A stretch of DNA of 39,428 nt, taken from the NCBI GenBank assembly GCA_019239415.1, contig JAFAZW010000084.1, positions 1-39,428 of the forward strand. Direction: 5' to 3'. This document shows positions 1 to 39,269 of this stretch, piece after piece. Both the position numbers and the translations under genes were made by a program. Origin of the DNA: Alphaproteobacteria bacterium. Lineage in GTDB: Bacteria > Pseudomonadota > Alphaproteobacteria > Sphingomonadales > Sphingomonadaceae. Positions within the stretch are counted from its first letter, which is position 1. Each line of letters starts with the position of its first letter. The notes beneath the pieces are model-generated. The model worked only from the letters and a program-made list of their open reading frames with translations. It was not told the DNA's origin and ran no database searches.

Positions 1-696
1 AGCCGCAAGTCGGACAACCCGTCGATCACCCGCGACGTCTCGGGCGAGGGCGTCCAGCAGGCGCTCTTGAAGCTGATGGAGGGCACCACCGCCTCGGTGC
101 CGCCGCAGGGCGGCCGCAAGCATCCGCAGCAGGAGTTCCTGCAGGTCGACACGACCAACATCCTGTTCATCTGCGGCGGCGCCTTCGCCGGCCTCGAGAA
201 GATCATCGCCGACCGCCTGCAGGGCAAGTCGATCGGCTTCGGCGCCTATGTCGCCGCGCCCGAGGAGCGTCGCACCGGCGAGGTGCTGCGCCAGGGCGAG
301 CCGGACGACCTGTTGAAGTTCGGCCTCATCCCCGAATTCGTCGGCCGCCTGCCGGTGATCGCCACGCTCGAGGATCTCGACGAGGCGGCGCTGGTCAAGA
401 TCCTCAAGGAGCCGAAGAACGCGCTGGTCAAGCAGTATCAGAAGCTGTTCGACATGGAGGACGTGCGGCTCAGCTTCACCGAGGAGGCGCTGGTCGCCGT
501 CGCCAAGAAGGCGATCGAGCGCAAGACCGGCGCCCGCGGCCTGCGCTCGATCCTCGAGAACATCCTCCTCGACACGATGTTCGACCTGCCGTCGATGGAC
601 GGCGTCGACGAGGTGATGATCGACAAGGACGTCGTCGAGGGCCGCAAGGATCCGGTTCGCGTCTATGCCGAGAAGAAGGGCGAAAGCGCCGCCTGA
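1..696 (+). CDS. clpX: ATP-dependent Clp protease ATP-binding subunit ClpX, C-terminal part (5' end outside window)
   Basis: ClpX is the AAA+ unfoldase that feeds substrates to the ClpP peptidase in the cytoplasm. The frame is open from base 1, so the gene enters from the left edge; the N-terminal zinc-binding domain and Walker A are missing from the window. What remains is the second half of the AAA+ module: [13 protein letters not shown], the pore-loop/sensor region with [13 protein letters not shown], and the C-terminal small domain with the sensor-2 motif [11 protein letters not shown]. The protein ends GESAA, followed by TGA and a hairpin terminator. It lies just upstream of lon, an arrangement (clpX-lon-hup) widespread in proteobacteria. 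Identity is clear; only the true start cannot be seen. Confidence 0.97.
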
Positions 697-719
697 GGCC
701 TCCGTCCGTGGATCGCTTG

Positions 720-750
720 GGGCCGTTCCGCGCGCCGGAGCGGCCCTTTT
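720..750 (+). terminator. Rho-independent terminator after clpX
   Basis: The arms GGGCCGTTCC (720-729) and GGAGCGGCCC (737-746) pair over 10 bp with one G-U wobble around a 7-nt loop, and are followed at once by TTTTCC. It sits 24 nt after the clpX stop and before the lon promoter region, so it separates clpX from lon. Confidence 0.75.
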
Positions 751-775
751 CCTGTGGGCGATCGCCGGCCGCGCA

Positions 776-806
776 TTGATGCTCCGCGCCGCGCGGCCCA
801 TATAGG
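776..806 (+). promoter_or_regulatory. Candidate heat-shock (sigma-32-like) promoter of lon
   Basis: TTGATG at 776-781 is followed after 15 nt by CCCATATA at 797-804. The downstream element resembles the RpoH -10 consensus CCCCATnT and the upstream one keeps the TTGA core of the RpoH -35. Transcription would begin near 811, leaving a leader of about 40 nt before the lon GTG. Lon is a classical heat-shock gene. The same region can be read as a housekeeping promoter with TATAGG (801-806) at a poor 19-nt spacing, so the sigma factor is inferred. Confidence 0.45.
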
Positions 807-850
807 CGAGGACAAGAGGGAGCCCGGGCGGCTCCGAGCGGAGTTATTGC

Positions 851-3241
<2,391 letters not shown>

Positions 3242-3265: not shown

Positions 3266-3432
3266 TGCCTCCCCATCCGCGAGGATGGGGAGGGGGACCA
3301 CCCGAAGGGTGGTGGAGGGGTGTTCCGGCGGACGCTCCTGCCGTGGAGCGCCTGGACCGCACAGCAGGCGGCAGGTCACCCCTCCACCAGCTTCGCTGGT
3401 CCCCCTCTCCAAGCGTCCCGCTTGGGGAGGCA
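3266..3432. repeat. Compound palindromic repeat element, intergenic copy (family 1)
   Basis: A 167-bp palindrome in the lon-hup gap. The outer arms TGCCTCCCC and GGGGAGGCA close a structure whose two halves each hold two smaller hairpins: CCCCATCC/GGATGGGG and ACCACCC-GAA-GGGTGGT on the left, ACCAGC-TTC-GCTGGT and CCAAGCG/CGCTTGG on the right. The inner arms TGGTGGAGGGGTG and CACCCCTCCACCA pair with each other. The same architecture recurs at 11687-11816 and 29244-29377. There is no open reading frame of note and no flanking transposase, so it is a non-autonomous or structural repeat. It could also form terminator or mRNA-stabilising structures downstream of lon. Confidence 0.85.
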
Positions 3433-9294: not shown

Positions 9295-9818
9295 TTCGCG
9301 TCCCGCCACGCGCGATAGATGTCGTCCGCTTCGTCGGCGTTGATCGGGCCGATATGCTGGAGGCGGATGATGCCGCGGCCGTCGACGAGGAAGGTCTCCG
9401 GTACGCCCGACGAGCCGAGCGCGAACTGGACGCGGGTGCGGGGATCGTCGCCGATCCGCTCGAACGGGTCGCCATTGTCGGCGAGGAAGGCGGCGACGTC
9501 CTCGGGCCGGTCCCGGACCGCGATCGCGTCGATCGGCACGCCGCGCTGCTTCAGCATGGTCAGCACCGGCGCCTCGATGCGGCAGGGGACACACCAGCTC
9601 GCGAAGACGTTGACGAGGCGCGGCTGGCCGCGCCTGAGGTCGGCGGCCGCGAGGCCCGGATGGCCCGGCTGCGACGGGGCGAGGGCGAAGTCCGGCATCG
9701 GCTTCCCGACGAGCCGCGAGCGGATGGTGGGGTCGGCGGGATTGCGCAGCGCGAATGCCGCCACGACGAGCAGCAGCGCGAAGATTCCGAGCGGAATCCA
9801 GAGCAGGCCGCGCCTCAC
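9291..9818 (-). CDS. ccmG: Thiol:disulfide interchange protein CcmG (DsbE)
   Basis: Membrane-anchored periplasmic thioredoxin-fold protein that keeps the apocytochrome CXXCH cysteines reduced. The 175 residues have an N-terminal anchor (LLWIPLGIFALLLVVAAFAL), the PMPDFALAP segment, the redox site ASWCVPCR, and the cis-proline region SSGVPETFLVDGRG. The GTG start at 9818 is preceded by GGAGG and overlaps the ccmF stop as GTGA. It lies between ccmF and ccmH, the standard order. Confidence 0.95.
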   Translation of the reverse strand: MRRGLLWIPLGIFALLLVVAAFALRNPADPTIRSRLVGKPMPDFALAPSQPGHPGLAAADLRRGQPRLVNVFASWCVPCRIEAPVLTMLKQRGVPIDAIAVRDRPEDVAAFLADNGDPFERIGDDPRTRVQFALGSSGVPETFLVDGRGIIRLQHIGPINADEADDIYRAWRDAK

Positions 9819-11905
9819 GCCCACGCCTCCTCGAAGCTGCGCCGCCGGCTGCGCCACGCGCGCCACACGCGGCCGATGAGCGCGAGCAAGCCGCCCAGCG
9901 CGACCAGGAAGCCGCCGAGCCAGATGAGGGTGACGAACGGCTTCCACCACAGCCGGAGCTGCCAGCGCCCCGCCTCGTCGGACTTGCCGAGGACGGTATA
10001 GAGCTGGCCGTCGAGGACCGTCTGGATCGCCGTCTCGCTGGTCTCCGTCGGCGGCGCGCTGAACAGGCGCGACTGGGGATGGAGCTGGAAGGTGCGGCCG
10101 CCGCGGGTCGCGGTCAGGGTGGCTTCGATCGCCGTCCAGTTCGGGCCTGCGACCGGCTCGACCGCGGCGAAGCGGACCTGGTAGGGGCCGACCGGGATCG
10201 TCTCGCCGACCCGGGCGGCGACGAGCTTCTCCCGAGTGAAGGCGCTCTCGGCGGCCATGCCGGCGAGGCTGACGGCGATGCCGACATGGGCGATCACCAT
10301 GCCCCACAGGAAGAGCGGCGTGCGACGCAGGTTGCGCCTCCACAACGGCGCCACGCTGGCCGCGCCGACGCCGAAGGCAAGGACGAGGCCGAGCAGCGGT
10401 AGCAGGCCGATGCCGGGCGCGAGGAGCACGACCAGCGCGACGGCGAGGAGGCCGATCGCGGCCGGCACGGCCAGGCGCCGGCCCGCCTCTTTGAGCCGGT
10501 CGCGCCGCCAGCGCAGCAGCGGGCCGACCGCCATGGCGACGACGAGGAGGAGGCCGATGGGCCCGGCCGCGCTGTTGAAATAAGGCGGACCGACCGAGAC
10601 CTTGACGCCGATCGCCTCGGTGACGAGCGGATAGAGGGTGCCGATCAGCACCAGCCCGAGCAGCACGGTCAGCAGCAGATTGTTGAGGACGAGCGCGCCC
10701 TCGCGGCTCGCCACTTCGAATTGGCTCCCCTCCTTCACCGTGCCGACGCGGACTCCGAACAGGGTCAGCGCGCCGCCGATATAGAGGGCGAGGAGGATGA
10801 GGATGAAGGCGCCGCGCTTCGGGTCGACGGCGAAGGCGTGGACGCTGGTGAGGATGCCCGAGCGCACCAGGAAGGTGCCGATCATCGACATCGAGAAGGC
10901 GACGACGGCGAGCATCACCGTCCAGGCGCGCAGCGAATCGCGCGTGGCGAGAACCGTCACCGAATGGAGGAGGGCGGTCGCCGCCAGCCACGGCATCAGC
11001 GACGCGTTCTCGACCGGGTCCCAGAACCACCAGCCGCCCCAGCCCAGCTCGTAATAGGCCCAGTAGGAGCCGGCGGTAATCCCGACGGTGAGGAAGATCC
11101 AGGCGGCGAGCACCCAGGGCCGCATCGCCCGCGCGAAGGCCGGGCCGACGTCGCGCGTGATGAGCGCGCCGACCGCGAAGGAGAAAGCGACCGAGATGCC
11201 GACATAGCCGAAATAGAGGGTCGGCGGATGGAAGGCGAGGCCGGGGTCCTGCAGCAGGGGATTGAGGCCGTTGCCCTCGACCGGCGCGGGGAGAAGGCGG
11301 CGGAACGGGTTCGAGGCGAACAACAGGAACGCGTAGAAACCGAGCCCGATGAAAGCCTGGGCGGCGAGCGTGGCGAGCAAGGTCCGCTCATTGAGGCTCC
11401 GCTCGAGCAGCGCCACCGCGGCACCGGCGAGGGCGAGGACGGTCACCCACAGCAGCATCGAGCCTTCGTGATTCCCCCATGCCCCGGCGAACTTGTAGAG
11501 CCAGGGCTTCATCGAATGGCTGTTCGCCGCCACCAGCTCGACCGAGAGGTCCGTGCGCAGGAACAGCTGGATGAGGAGCAGGAAGGCGAGGCCGGCGAAC
11601 ACGGCCTGGACGATGGCGATCGGCCGGACGAGGCGGGCGACGTCGGAGGGGGCGGGTTCCTCGACGGAAACGGAGTAGCCGTCGACGTGCCTCCCCATCG
11701 CCAGATGGGGTCGGGGACCGCCCGAAGGGTGGCGGAGGGGTATCGTCTCGGCCTCGCCGCCTACCCCCCCACCATGCTTCGCATGGTCCCCCTCCCCATC
11801 GCCGATGGGGAGGCACTCTCGCACCGCCATCCACCCGAGGATCAGTTGCAGGAGCGAGAAGGCCGCGGCCAGCCACAAGGCGCCGAGGCCGGCTTCGGCG
11901 ATCAT
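9815..11905 (-). CDS. ccmF: Haem lyase subunit CcmF, with a repeat-encoded insertion
   Basis: Multi-pass membrane protein that attaches haem to apocytochrome c in the periplasm. The 696 residues show the hallmarks: ENSHSMKPWLYKFAGAWGNHEGS, the WWD domain YELGWGGWWFWDPVENAS, and many membrane helices. Residues about 30-73 are encoded by the palindromic element at 11687-11816 and separate the first helix from ARLVRPIAIVQAVFAGLAF; they are polar, rich in Gly and His, and resemble nothing in CcmF. Removing them leaves about 652 residues, the usual CcmF length. The frame is intact across the element and the gene is followed by coupled ccmG, so it is probably functional. The start overlaps the ccmE stop (ATGA). 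Confidence 0.95.
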   Translation of the reverse strand: MIAEAGLGALWLAAAFSLLQLILGWMAVRECLPIGDGEGDHAKHGGGVGGEAETIPLRHPSGGPRPHLAMGRHVDGYSVSVEEPAPSDVARLVRPIAIVQAVFAGLAFLLLIQLFLRTDLSVELVAANSHSMKPWLYKFAGAWGNHEGSMLLWVTVLALAGAAVALLERSLNERTLLATLAAQAFIGLGFYAFLLFASNPFRRLLPAPVEGNGLNPLLQDPGLAFHPPTLYFGYVGISVAFSFAVGALITRDVGPAFARAMRPWVLAAWIFLTVGITAGSYWAYYELGWGGWWFWDPVENASLMPWLAATALLHSVTVLATRDSLRAWTVMLAVVAFSMSMIGTFLVRSGILTSVHAFAVDPKRGAFILILLALYIGGALTLFGVRVGTVKEGSQFEVASREGALVLNNLLLTVLLGLVLIGTLYPLVTEAIGVKVSVGPPYFNSAAGPIGLLLVVAMAVGPLLRWRRDRLKEAGRRLAVPAAIGLLAVALVVLLAPGIGLLPLLGLVLAFGVGAASVAPLWRRNLRRTPLFLWGMVIAHVGIAVSLAGMAAESAFTREKLVAARVGETIPVGPYQVRFAAVEPVAGPNWTAIEATLTATRGGRTFQLHPQSRLFSAPPTETSETAIQTVLDGQLYTVLGKSDEAGRWQLRLWWKPFVTLIWLGGFLVALGGLLALIGRVWRAWRSRRRSFEEAWA
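11687..11816. repeat. Compound palindromic repeat element inside ccmF (family 1)
   Basis: A 130-bp palindrome with perfect 14-bp outer arms (GTGCCTCCCCATCG at 11687-11700 and its complement at 11803-11816). Inside it are four hairpins in the same order as in the lon-hup copy: CCCATC/GATGGG, CCGCCC-GAA-GGGTGG, ACCATGC-TTC-GCATGGT, and CTCCCCATC/GATGGGGAG. The central arms GGCGGAGGGGTA and TACCCCCCCACC also pair. It is read through by ccmF on the minus strand and encodes about residues 30-73 of CcmF. Confidence 0.92.
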
Positions 11906-28176: not shown

Positions 28177-28622
28177 CGCCCGGTCGAGCCGAACCCGCCC
28201 GCGCCGCGCGTCGTCGCGTCCAGGTCCTCGACCTCGCGGAACCGGGCCCGCTGCACCGGCGCCGGCACCAGCTGCGCGATCCGCTCCCCGCGGGCGATCT
28301 CGAACGGCGCGTCGCCGAGATTGGCAAGGATCACCTTCACCTCGCCGCGATAATCCTCGTCGATCGTGCCCGGGGTGTTGAGGCAGGTGATGCCGTGCTT
28401 CAATGCGAGCCCGGAGCGCGGCCGTACCTGCACCTCGTAGCCCGCCGGTATGGCAATGGCGAAGCCGGTCGCGACGGCGTGGCGCGCGCCCGGTGCGAGC
28501 ATCAGGCTCTCGGCCGCGACGACGTCCATCCCCGCCGCGCCGGGCGTGGCATAGGAGGGGAGGGGGAGGCCTTCGCCATGCGGCAGGCGTTTGAGGGCAA
28601 TCTCGATGTCAGGCGAGGGCAT
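28173..28622 (-). CDS. dut: Deoxyuridine 5'-triphosphate nucleotidohydrolase (dUTPase)
   Basis: Trimeric dUTPase that converts dUTP to dUMP and pyrophosphate, preventing uracil incorporation. All five family motifs are visible in 149 residues: [47 protein letters not shown], and the C-terminal phosphate-binding [10 protein letters not shown]. The ATG at 28622 ([19 protein letters not shown]) is preferred to an ORF start at 28688 that would run far into coaBC. It overlaps the coaBC 3' end by 14 nt and the moeB start by 4 nt; coaBC-dut is a conserved pair. Confidence 0.97.
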
Positions 28623-29904
28623 CGGCGATCCTTCCCGCCAGCCGCCGCGCGATCTGCGCCTTCGCGTCCGCCGGCCAGTGCTCGACACCCTCCTCGGTCA
28701 CCAGAAGCACTTCGTTCGTCTCACCACCCATCACGTCTCCCGAAACATCGTTCGCCACGATCCAGTCCGCCCCCTTGCGCTCCCGCTTCGCCCGCGCTTC
28801 CGTTTCGACATCCTGCGTCTCAGCCGCGAAGCCAATGAGCAGCCGCGGGCGACGATCGGACCGGGCGAGGCTCGCAAGGATGTCCGGATTCTCCGTCCAG
28901 GCCAGTTGCGGCGGGCCGTCCTTCTTCTTGAGCTTGGAGCCGGCGGCCGCGACGCCCCAGTCCGCCACTGCCGCGACCAGCACCGCCGCATCGGCGGGAA
29001 GCGCCGCGTCGACACCCGCCAGCATCTGCGCCGCCGTCTCGACGTCCACGCGGTGAACGCCCGCCGGCGTCGCCAGCGCGACGGGACCGGCCACCAGCGT
29101 CACTTCCGCCCCCAGCGCCGCAAGCGCCTCGGCGATGGCAAAACCCTGCTTCCCCGAGGAACGGTTGGCGATGACTCGCACCGGATCGATCGGCTCGTGC
29201 GTCGGGCCGGCGGTGACGATGATGCTTTTTCCTCTGAGCCTGCGCTCCTCCCCGGAACGGGGAAGGGGACCAGCCGGAGGCTGGTGGAGGGAGCCCACGT
29301 CCGTGGCGGCAGAGAGGCGGCCCCCCTCCACCGCGCCGCTTCGCGTCGCGGTCCCCCTCCCCGTTCCGGGGAGGAGCTTCTCGATCTCCGCCACGATCCG
29401 TTCCGGCTCCGGCAGCCGCCCGGGACCGAATTCGCCGCAGGCCATCTCGCCTTCGTCGGGCTCAACCACCGCCACGCCGTCCTCCCGCAGCCGCGCGACG
29501 TTACGGACGGTCGCCGCGTGCCGCCACATCCGCACGTTCATCGCCGGCGCGGCGAGCACCTTCTTGTCGGTGGCGAGCAGCAGCGTGGTCGCCAGGTCGT
29601 CGGCGATCCCCGCCGCCATCTTCGCAACGAGGTCCGCGGTCGCGGGGCAGACGACGACGAGGTCGGCGTCGCGGCTGAGCTGGATGTGCCCCATCTCGGC
29701 CTCGTCCTTCAAATCCCAGAGGCTGGTGTGGACCGGCTGCTCGGAGAGCGCCGCCAGCGTCATCGGCGTGATGAACTGCGCGCCGCCTGGGGTCAGCACG
29801 CACCTGACGCTCCCCCCCGCCCTGCGGATCAGCCGGACGAGTTCGCACGCCTTGTACGCCGCGATCCCGCCGCCGACGATGAGGAGGATGCGCGCGCCGT
29901 TCAT
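28609..29904 (-). CDS. coaBC: Bifunctional phosphopantothenoylcysteine decarboxylase/synthetase CoaBC, with a repeat-encoded linker
   Basis: Two steps of coenzyme A synthesis in one protein. CoaC is the N-terminal flavoprotein ([19 protein letters not shown]; the active-site motif [17 protein letters not shown] with the catalytic Cys). CoaB is the C-terminal half ([49 protein letters not shown]). Between them residues about 176-221 ([17 protein letters not shown] and onwards) are encoded by the palindromic element at 29244-29377. The protein is 431 residues; without these it would be about 386, close to the usual length. The junction is an interdomain linker, so both domains should still fold. 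The ATG is at 29904. Confidence 0.96.
29244..29377. repeat. Compound palindromic repeat element inside coaBC (family 1)
   Basis: A 134-bp palindrome with perfect 18-bp outer arms (GCTCCTCCCCGGAACGGG at 29244-29261, complement at 29360-29377). The internal hairpins are CCCCG/CGGGG, ACCAGCC-GGA-GGCTGGT, ACCGCG/CGCGGT around a TTC loop, and CCCCG/CGGGG. The order and the conserved GGGGACC...GGTGGAGGG blocks match the copies at 3266 and 11687, but the stem sequences differ in compensated fashion. It is read in frame as the CoaC-CoaB linker. Confidence 0.92.
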
Positions 29905-29912
29905 GGTCTTGG

Positions 29913-30776
29913 CTATAGCTCAGGTTCCGACGCCGTAGCCACCGTCGCCGCTCCGTGCGTCTCCGAACGAGTCAGCATCACCCGGAACAGCGCCTCCGCG
30001 GCTGTGACGGCCTCGCCAGCGATTCGCGTGGCACCGCCCGCCGATGTGGCGCGGGCGATCGCGAATTCCTCGTCGATGAAGCGCAGGAGCGGCGCCGGGA
30101 TCGGAGCTTCGCCGAGCTCCCGCGTCTGCGCCTTTCGCAGCAGGAGGTCCGCCACGACCATTGTCACCTCCGCGTCGGGATTGCATTCGGCCATCAGCGT
30201 GGGGAAGTGCATAGGCGGAACTTCCATGTCGTGAAGCCGGAGCCATCGCAGCGCCGCGGCGGGCCGAAGCGCGTAAAACACCTTCTTCAGCGGCACCGCC
30301 TTGGTGTCGGCGAAATAGGTCCGGCGCTGCTTCTCGCCCAAGTGGAGGTAGTGGCGGCGCAGGCGTTCGCGGTCCGCGTGGCGGGCCGCAAAGGCGAGGA
30401 GCTCGTCGCGAAAGCGCGGATCGCCGCGATAGGTAATCGGCGAGGTCAGCCACTCGATCACCACGGCATTGCCCTTGAGCAGCAGCTTGAGCGCTTTGCC
30501 GACGTCCCAGCCGTTGATGTCGAGCTCTTCGTCGAGCGGTAGCTCGATCACGTCGCGCTTGTGCCAAGGGGAGAGGTAGTCGTCGCGCCGCCGGAAGAAG
30601 AGGAAGCGACAATCGTAATCGCTGTCCGGCGAGGGAAATCCCCAAGCGCGGCTGCCGCTTTCGATGGCGAGGACGATCGTCACGCGGTGGTTTTGCTCGA
30701 TGGCCTCGAGGGCGGCATCGATGCGGCGGACGGACGCCGGCGCGAGCGTCTCAGGGACCGACCGCAGCTGCGGCAC
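29913..30776 (-). CDS. RlaP-like nucleotidyltransferase (DNA polymerase beta superfamily)
   Basis: A 287-residue predicted nucleotidyltransferase of the RlaP group, named from an association with RNA ligases in RNA repair cassettes. The catalytic core is IVLAIESGSRAWGFPSPDSD with the GS motif and the metal-binding DSDYDCRFLFF. Further conserved pieces are DVIELPLDEELDINGWDVG, GNAVVIEWLTSPI and KKVFYALRPAAALRWL. The start is uncertain: GTG at 30776, or TTG at 30791 which overlaps the ubiB stop as TTGA. It is an unexpected gene between ubiB and coaBC. No RNA ligase or kinase gene is seen nearby, so an RNA-repair role is only a family-based idea. Confidence 0.85.
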   Translation of the reverse strand: MPQLRSVPETLAPASVRRIDAALEAIEQNHRVTIVLAIESGSRAWGFPSPDSDYDCRFLFFRRRDDYLSPWHKRDVIELPLDEELDINGWDVGKALKLLLKGNAVVIEWLTSPITYRGDPRFRDELLAFAARHADRERLRRHYLHLGEKQRRTYFADTKAVPLKKVFYALRPAAALRWLRLHDMEVPPMHFPTLMAECNPDAEVTMVVADLLLRKAQTRELGEAPIPAPLLRFIDEEFAIARATSAGGATRIAGEAVTAAEALFRVMLTRSETHGAATVATASEPEL

Positions 30777-30787
30777 GTCCGTCGCGA

Positions 30788-32329
30788 TCAATGGACCAGC
30801 CACATCGCGCCCGCACCCGCCGCAGCGGCAACCGCAGCCGTCAGCACGTAGCGCCAATAATGGTGGGGCTGGACGACGACCACGTCGGGCAGCGGCGGGT
30901 CGGGCGGCGCCGCGCCGGGCGGGGGGTAATAATGGTCGATGCGGCGGATGAGGTCGGGGATCTTGGCAAAGGTGCGCACGTCGCGGACGATGCGGTCGGC
31001 GAGCGCCGCCTCCGGGCCGAGCTCGCCGCGCACCCACTCGCGCAGGAACGGCTCGGCCGTCTCCCACATGTTGATGTCCGGATTGAGCGCATGGGCGACG
31101 CCTTCCTCCATCACCATCGTCTTCTGGAGGAGCAGGAGGTGCGGCTGCGTCGGCATGTCGAAGTCGCGGGTGATGGTGAACAGCCCATCGAGCATCTGGC
31201 CGATCGAGATATCCTTGACCGGGAGCCCGCGGATCGGCTCGCCGACGGCGCGCAGCGCGGTCGCGAACTCGTCGACATTGTGGTGTGCCGGCACATATTG
31301 TGCCTCGAAATGGATTTCGGCGACGCGGCGGTAATTGCCGGTGAGGAGCCCGTAGAGGATTTCCGCCAGCCAGAACCGCGCCTGCCGGTCGATGCGGCCC
31401 ATGATCCCGAAGTCGATCGCCGCGAGCCGGCCGTCGGGGAGCGCGAAGAGGTTGCCCTGGTGGAGGTCGGCGTGGAAGAAGCCGTCGATCACCGCCTGCC
31501 GGAGGAAGGCGCGCACGAGGATGGCGGCGAGGCTCTTGAGGTCGTGCCCCGCCTCGACCAGTGCGTCGCGGTCGGTGAGCTTGATGCCGTCGATCCACTC
31601 GAGCGTCATCACCCGGCGCGAGGTGCGGGTCCAGTCGATGGCGGGGACGTAGAAGCCGCTCTCGGCGACGAGATTCTCGCGCAGCTCGGAGGCCGAGGCC
31701 GCTTCGCGCCGGAGGTCGAGCTCGCGTGCCGTCCACTGCTTGAACTGGGCGATGACGGCGCGGGGCCGGAGGCGCGCGACCTCCCCGCCCATCGCCTCGA
31801 CCTGCGCCGCCGCCCATTCGTAGGTGTCGAGGGCGCGGGCGAAATCCTCCTCGATGTTCGGCCGCAGCACCTTGACCGCGACGAGGCGGCCGTCGGTCGT
31901 GACGGCGCGGTGCACCTGGGCGATCGAGGCGGCGCCGACCGGCTCGGGATCGATCTCGCGGAACACCTCCTCGAGCGGCTTCTCCAGCCCGGCCTCGATC
32001 GCCCGGCGGACCTCCTCGAACGGGGCCGGCGGGAGGTTGTCCTGGAGCGTCTGCAGGTTGCGCGCGGCCTCGTCGCCGACCAGGTCCGGCCGCGTCGCCA
32101 GGGCCTGACCGAACTTGATCGCGGCCGGACCGAGCTCCTGGAACGCCTCGCCATAGGTCGGCACCTTCGGGATGCGGGCGCCGAACCGCGCGATGCGCGC
32201 CAGGCGGCGCACCTGCGGCGGCGTGTTCGGGTCGCGCTCGATGCCGCGCAGCGCGCCGTGGCGGGCGAGCACGCGCCCCCATTTGAGCAGGCGCCAGACG
32301 TGGACGGCAGGTCGCGTCAAACCTTCCAC
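30788..32329 (-). CDS. ubiB: Ubiquinone biosynthesis regulatory protein kinase UbiB
   Basis: Atypical ABC1/ADCK-type kinase-like ATPase needed for ubiquinone synthesis at the inner membrane. The 513 residues contain the UbiB-specific KxGQ motif in AIKFGQALATRPDLV, AIAQVHRA-like ASIAQVHRAVT, the VAVKVLRPNI lysine, ADLHQGNLF, and the metal aspartate in AIDFGIMGRID. A proline-rich stretch near the end precedes a C-terminal membrane helix (VLTAAVAAAAGAGAMWLV). The GTG at 32329 is used; a TTG at 32320 overlapping the ubiE stop as TTGA is an alternative. It is coupled to ubiE. Confidence 0.96.
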   Translation of the reverse strand: MEGLTRPAVHVWRLLKWGRVLARHGALRGIERDPNTPPQVRRLARIARFGARIPKVPTYGEAFQELGPAAIKFGQALATRPDLVGDEAARNLQTLQDNLPPAPFEEVRRAIEAGLEKPLEEVFREIDPEPVGAASIAQVHRAVTTDGRLVAVKVLRPNIEEDFARALDTYEWAAAQVEAMGGEVARLRPRAVIAQFKQWTARELDLRREAASASELRENLVAESGFYVPAIDWTRTSRRVMTLEWIDGIKLTDRDALVEAGHDLKSLAAILVRAFLRQAVIDGFFHADLHQGNLFALPDGRLAAIDFGIMGRIDRQARFWLAEILYGLLTGNYRRVAEIHFEAQYVPAHHNVDEFATALRAVGEPIRGLPVKDISIGQMLDGLFTITRDFDMPTQPHLLLLQKTMVMEEGVAHALNPDINMWETAEPFLREWVRGELGPEAALADRIVRDVRTFAKIPDLIRRIDHYYPPPGAAPPDPPLPDVVVVQPHHYWRYVLTAAVAAAAGAGAMWLVH

Positions 32330-39102: not shown

Positions 39103-39140
39103 GCTATGCTGCGCCCGCGATAAATCACTGAACCCCCAAC

Positions 39141-39229
39141 ACCGTTCGGGCTGAGCCTGTCGAAGCCCTGCCCTCCCTCTCGCTCAGTAAGAACAAGGAC
39201 AGGGCTTCGACAAGCTCAGCCCGAACGGT
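39141..39229. repeat. Palindromic repeat with 30-bp arms (family 2) between secB and murJ
   Basis: The left arm (39141-39170, ACCGTTCGGG...GCCCTG) and the right arm (39200-39229, CAGGGC...CCCGAACGGT) are complementary at 29 of 30 positions, separated by 29 nt. The single mismatch is in GAGCCTGTC versus GAGCTTGTC. It is unrelated in sequence to the family-1 elements. It may act as a bidirectional structure or transcription terminator after secB. Confidence 0.9.
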
Positions 39230-39269
39230 TTTCGTTCCCTGCGCCCACTGCAGCCGGCACGGGAACGAG

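Follow-up and report, generated by a model that had tools for sequence, protein, structure and literature searches.

The question raised by this locus is how a palindromic stretch of DNA came to be read as protein in the middle of CoaBC, and whether such a position is occupied once and then inherited or is settled repeatedly. For Rickettsia, the choice between hotspots and inheritance of coding palindromes is treated as open in the literature (PMC3767692). The genus studied here offers clean empty sites, several palindrome families per site and a tree, which makes the hotspot question directly testable, and palindromes of this kind would constitute a recurring supply of new linker sequence for essential enzymes. 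We propose, with a probability of about 0.7, that mobile palindromes resembling the RPEs of Rickettsia repeatedly settle at a few permissive linkers and then turn over. Unless a contig is named, coordinates refer to the window, that is, the whole stretch of DNA analysed (39,428 nt).

The palindrome within coaBC

The features of the locus are the following.
28609..29904, minus strand: coaBC, intact frame of 431 aa, with the insert at about residues 176-221
29244..29377, unstranded: family-A palindromic element, full copy within coaBC (inverted repeat, BLAST, covariance model, frame)
29244..29271, unstranded: outer arm, 28 nt (inverted-repeat search)
29350..29377, unstranded: outer arm, complementary to the first at 27 of 28 positions (inverted-repeat search)
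29272..29282, unstranded: variable inner hairpin 1, 11 nt, between GGGGACC and GGTGGAGG
29333..29349, unstranded: variable inner hairpin 2, 17 nt

A sequence-only reading had described a repeat at 29244-29377, and this element was found to be real: it is a palindrome of 134 nt, its inverted repeat pairs 29244-29271 with 29350-29377 (28 nt, 96%), and its fold, copy number and arm pattern lie far above chance. The arms are palindromic as described, with a perfect run of 20 nt where 18 had been given, followed by one mismatch and 7 further paired nucleotides. The linker DNA folds with z = -7.0, and none of 200 shuffles folded equally well.

The minus-strand frame is unbroken and is recognised as CoaBC by the NCBIfam model TIGR00521 (E = 1.2e-116), in agreement with the earlier view that the gene is not a pseudogene. 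The Pfam domains Flavoprotein and DFP cover residues 5-177 and 223-401, and the insert, which reads LLPGTGRGT..., sits between the CoaC and CoaB domains. The junction thus carries the approximately 45 extra residues that had been predicted, and the protein would measure about 386 residues without them (431 minus 45). The linker is 144 nt long, compared with a median of 33 nt among 103 distinct coaBC loci of the order, and an unrelated linker of the same length is therefore not a general property of sphingomonad CoaBC proteins. An AlphaFold2 model built from 32 aligned CoaBC sequences (mean pLDDT 81) has pLDDT values below 50 at residues 182-216, inside the insert, and further weaker stretches near residues 61-70, 231-250 and 311-340. 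The top Foldseek match of this model is CoaBC of M. smegmatis (6tgv; E = 2.4e-33; whole-chain TM-score of only 0.40-0.44), and the insert is best seen, in the model, as a putative disordered linker. The gene is adjoined by a 789-aa ORF (29913-32282, minus strand), which shows a Pfam match of the RlaP type (RNA repair, DNA polymerase beta family) at residues 520-748 only.

Family A in its own genome

Two further copies are present in the window, one of them within a gene.
9815..11905, minus strand: ccmF, intact frame of 696 aa
11689..11814, unstranded: copy in ccmF, same family, GCCTCCCCATC arm subtype, in frame
3267..3431, unstranded: third copy, ccmF arm subtype, ends placed by eye

The ccmF copy, which had been noticed as the first in-frame copy, was borne out as well. 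The third copy lies outside the ORF at 476-3238, its left half belongs to repeat family D5, and it is absent from the list of matches to covariance model R1. Within the window, Rfam at gathering thresholds returned two tRNAs only.

The family is dispersed throughout the genome. BLAST gave at least 84 matches, both strands counted (40 of 155 candidates scored), and the outer-arm pattern with at most one mismatch occurs 95 times forward and 90 times in reverse, compared with 0 and 0 for the backwards control. Model R1, built from 29 copies, gave at least 124 matches at no fewer than 65 distinct places in the draft genome (E<=0.01; 150 of 7605 candidates scored, hence a lower bound). The common layout is GCTCCTCCCCGGAACGGGGAGGGGGACC - inner hairpin - GGTGGAGGGGGCCC - about 30 variable nt - GGGCCCCCTCCACC - inner hairpin - GGTCCCCCTCCCCGTTCCGGGGAGGAGC, with 28-nt arms and about four hairpins per element. 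The frame of the inner hairpin is fitted by 100 of 130 half-elements, which comprise 58 distinct sequences, and 94% of their opposed positions pair, compared with 40% after shuffling. That the inner hairpins vary yet keep pairing is the mark of selection on a nucleic-acid structure. With 82 candidates scored in each genome, R1 had matches at E<=1e-5 in 20 of 24 relatives of the same genus and in none of the 16 genomes from other genera. Among public coaBC loci, R1 matched L122 outside coaBC (E = 1.3e-7) and L097 within the linker (E = 3e-5), and according to these two matches the range of family A may extend beyond the genus.

At least 7 of the 65 places are in-frame copies within intact housekeeping genes, consistent with the proposal of a dispersed element with several in-frame coding insertions. 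This number is a lower bound, since the calls were based on the codon-usage score of spanning ORFs, with Pfam run on ten candidates and the two window genes; four of the ten had no Pfam family, one was set aside, and the remaining places were judged by codon score alone. The candidate set aside is a thiolase (C81:16235), whose thiolase domain lies downstream of the element. The hosts are coaBC, ccmF, glyS, truB, the methylmalonyl-CoA mutase gene, dnaE and a murD-like gene, the last identified by an N-domain match too weak for the cut-off (E = 7e-4). The copies fall between domains, as in truB (between its two domains), the mutase (between the catalytic and B12 domains) and dnaE (between the finger and HHH domains), or within domains where relatives vary; the glyS copy lies inside the synthetase domain.

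With regard to the reading frame, the idea of an element suited to one frame, a frame-specific coding cassette, was not upheld: all three phases are represented among the seven genic copies, and the lengths of 41 non-genic core copies show no excess of multiples of three (12, 13 and 16 copies with remainders 0, 1 and 2). In the proposed check for stop-free frames, all 44 core copies have an open frame on each strand, but this is barely informative, since at a GC content of 78% the test is saturated and dinucleotide shuffles reach 42.8 +/- 1.0. The total number of open frames is in excess (228 of 264 compared with 192 +/- 6 in shuffles, none of 200 shuffles having as many). Non-genic core copies are similarly open (211 of 246), so openness is a trait of the GC-rich element and not an outcome of coding use; the stop-free frames are mostly due to composition. 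Taken as a whole, the earlier interpretation is partly supported: it holds for a dispersed in-frame insert at a domain junction of an intact coaBC, but not for frame suitability, and its stop test says little. The occupation of about the same codons by other palindrome families in congeners could not have been visible to it.

No transposase or mobile intermediate tied to family A was found. ORFs between nearby copy pairs at C32, C98 and C18 (the pairs at C14, C3 and C47 lie outside this comparison) encode hydantoinase B, recR, peptide deformylase and an epimerase-like protein, and a transposon ended by these arms was discarded. The genome has a single Y1/IS200-like transposase match (Y1_Tnp, L221, G000 C35:50507-50809); in its 3.3-kb locus GGGGACC, GGTCCCC, CCTCCCC, GTGGAGGGG and CCCCTCCAC are absent and GGGGAGG occurs twice. 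An inverted repeat near L221, GTGCACTGTCACCG / CGGTGACAGTACAC, is not a family-A element. Target site duplications of 2-9 nt were sought at 40 well-bounded copies, and none rose above the control except one 5-nt match (2 nt, 3 of 40 with a control mean of 3.9; 5 nt, 1 of 40 with a control of 0.02; other lengths, 0). T occupies position -2 of the outward flank in 65% of 80 ends, compared with a background of 15%; a preferred target, an end base overlooked in delimiting the element, or overlap with stop codons may lie behind this. Nothing beyond this preference indicated a sequence-specific target.

The same sites in congeners

For four of the genes, 26 genomes of the genus, the present one included, were queried with the protein half adjoining the element, which kept the insert itself from influencing what was retrieved; for coaBC the query was the entire protein with its insert, run against 41 genomes and a public collection. 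The DNA was read at each site, and inserts were sorted into families by eye. All five sites were picked because the present genome has A there, which inflates the occupancies given below.

Congeners were found to carry palindromic inserts at about the same codons, often of other families. Family B is a CTGAGCCTGTCGAAG palindrome, C a CGTC-like palindrome and D a TCCCCTGAAGGAGAGGGG palindrome. Of the 23 genomes scored for truB, 16 have an insert; ten of these belong to A (one decayed), four to C (two short) and one each to B and D, with G004 and G022 (cut) and G024 (no match) left out. For glyS the figure is 13 of 24 (A 4, D 6, B 2, E 1; G016, whose second half is missing, and G023, without a match, left out). 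The methylmalonyl-CoA mutase gene has inserts in 6 of 24 genomes (A 4, one of them a half copy, and B 2; G005 and G017 left out for lack of a match), and the other 18 show no net extra nucleotides at the site; here A is found in G008, and B in its sister G019 as well as in G006. Presence and absence in coaBC, the comparison that had been suggested for this locus, gave inserts in 5 of 23 genomes (A 3, B 1, F 1), leaving out G023 (decayed, doubtful), G011 (no match) and G041 (outside that search). In ccmF only two of 24 genomes, which are sisters, have an insert, in both cases A (G023, first half missing, and G022, no match, left out).

At E<=0.1, R1 backs the assignment to A at 9 truB, 4 glyS, 3 mutase and 2 ccmF loci, and at 6 coaBC loci besides the present one, of which L062 and L092 seem to be one contig; it fell below this threshold for truB of G001 and for the mutase half copy of G011. 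R1 also matches, weakly and with up to 58.8 bits, inserts that had been scored as D, five of them in glyS and one in truB, and A and D may be distant kin. Several public Sphingomonadales coaBC linkers contain, by eye, A-like or B-like palindromes, and the A-like ones at L097, L100 and L131 are matched by R1, the latter two weakly (E = 0.001-0.002). In two public Sphingomonas records of coaBC (L124 and L168), the linker as read by script has a stop codon; CoaC and CoaB may be separate there, or the frame broken.

Nine of the inserts found in relatives fold much better than shuffles (z from -3.6 to -10.2). Family C is dispersed, with 85 matches in G009 (both strands counted) and 42 in G005, although in G020 and G013, two genomes scored as C, the C query had 0 and 2 matches, respectively. 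Family D is dispersed in all seven genomes tested (22 matches in G008, 27 in G019 and 4-18 in five further genomes). Across the five genes (2,740 aligned residues, 24-25 genomes each), no other insertion of at least 15 residues was seen save in glyS, in a scan built on BLAST pieces that could miss some; the exceptions in glyS are an insertion of 15 residues that G016 and G019 have in the N part, near residue 296, and the variable region of the C part described below.

Repeated arrival and inheritance

In-frame palindromes as such are already known. RPEs are palindromes of about 100-150 bp that occur in many copies and in frame in genes, in solvent-exposed parts of the proteins (Ogata et al. 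2000, 2002, as summarised in PMC10969869 and PMC3767692). According to PMC3767692, every ortholog examined in Rickettsia has its insert at one shared site, although the authors call the possibility of hotspots 'still not negligible'. Being dispersed, 100-150 bp long and in frame in intact genes, family A appears to behave like a coding palindrome of the RPE type; the likeness lies in palindrome size, copy number, in-frame genic inserts and truB as a host in both (PMC3733652). It differs in that the host order is another one, that the two were likened by description and not by sequence, and that congener sites here are empty or filled by other families. CGTC and GTAG REPs, which occur in bacteria that include sphingomonads, are likewise palindromic, often form dimers, and have been described as intragenic in truB and tRNA synthetases of S. 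alaskensis and E. litoralis; the closest case to a shared site is recB of two Xanthomonas (all from the REP survey in PMC3733652). Family C inserts (CATTCCAGCGAAAGCTGGAATC) resemble CGTC repeats by eye, whereas family A has 28-nt arms, about four hairpins and neither tag. Its ends are GCTCCTCC/GGAGGAGC, which does not fit a CGTC REP (CGTC tag, stem of 8-9 bp), and membership of the GTAG REPs or REPINs was set aside because the flanks lack a GTAG consensus and no RAYT gene is flanked by the repeat. REPINs with their RAYTs (PMC3116915, PMC8266576) and MITEs (PMC10969869) resemble family A in being short, non-autonomous, hairpin-forming and dispersed. The RAYT link was rejected, as the one Y1 transposase gene of the genome is not flanked by the element; of the MITE hallmarks, terminal inverted repeats are present and a target site duplication is lacking. 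The open-access PMC literature yielded no report of family A or of same-codon reuse beyond the near cases cited. What is new is that different families reuse about the same codons in congeners, with clean empty sites in others.

According to the reading that we prefer, a mobile family-A palindrome (about 134 nt, each half an outer hairpin plus a variable inner one) would have entered the codons joining CoaC and CoaB. Because the element is rich in GC and has few stops in any frame, a copy whose net length is a multiple of three and which lands in an exposed linker would be translated as a disordered loop and survive, and copies landing elsewhere in genes would be removed. The surviving positions would then represent a limited number of permissive sites, repeatedly settled by the palindrome families of each genome, and resident copies would turn over by replacement, homogenisation with other copies of the genome or internal deletion, or be plainly inherited. 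On a tree of the 26 genomes (five concatenated genes without inserts, quick search), the minimum number of state changes, losses included, was 12 for truB, 9 for glyS, 4 for the mutase, 5 for coaBC and 1 for ccmF. With D merged into A, because R1 weakly matches D, and with doubtful rows taken out (also truB of G001, G013 and G023, the mutase of G011 and glyS of G013), the values were 9, 6, 4, 5 and 1, respectively. A switch between unrelated families at one site needs a new insertion.

The similarity of the inserts points to both arrival and descent. For the five inserts of the present genome, the best copy elsewhere in that genome is 78-91% identical and the best same-site insert of a relative 65-76%, a comparison that favours the own-genome pool, which is larger. 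In mean identity, which is rough because automatic trimming was poor for some copies (identities near 0.15), the truB, coaBC and mutase inserts show no greater likeness to same-site inserts than to the remaining own copies, glyS is nearly balanced (0.80 vs 0.78-0.80), and ccmF goes the opposite way (own copies 0.644, same-site inserts 0.705). Some inserts have been passed on by descent: in glyS, G008 and G019 share D inserts that are 90% identical.

A single ancestral insertion per site, inherited within the genus, with copies kept alike by gene conversion and lost by internal deletion, would account for this pair, for the likeness of copies within a genome and for the frame, which is constant at each site among the species carrying A. 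By eye, A-like end remnants can also be recognised in truB of G003, G011 and G019 and in coaBC of G004, and in truB such ends persist even where the species has a short insert or a different one (G003, G019); together with the constant frame, these ends fit what may be an ancestral insertion at truB. Nevertheless, such a history cannot turn A into B, C, E or F at one site, nor does it explain the 18 empty mutase genes, and as a general account we consider it unlikely. So the picture is probably one of repeated arrival plus inheritance, conversion and deletion. An extension of our preferred reading, to which we give similarly little credence, is that insertion is steered to particular codons of essential genes, as a safe-harbour strategy shared by several families that would provide interchangeable mobile linkers in core enzymes.

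It is somewhat less probable still that resident palindromes act as landing pads, an early insertion making the site prone to later ones in or beside it. The B palindrome between A-like ends in truB of G019 could be read in this manner, and REP dimers within other palindromes are reported in the survey cited above (PMC3733652); against this, the mutase site of the 18 genomes has neither an older palindrome nor a net extra base.

The notion that the linkers are ordinary hypervariable loops of no mobile origin can practically be dismissed, since the inserts are dispersed repeats with strong hairpins and the copy number of family A refutes it for that family, even though such loops do exist, for example in a second variable region of glyS. 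This region, at about residues 125-185 of the GlyRS beta C part (L247-L271), varies among congeners, many of which have 15-40 extra residues, and is mostly non-palindromic by eye; G006 has a seeming B-type palindrome there. The window also holds a palindrome of type B, the same type as the mutase insert of G019: a 37-nt inverted repeat (92%) of the CTTCGACAAGCTCAGCCCGAACGG kind at 39138-39232, past the last listed ORF of at least 120 aa.
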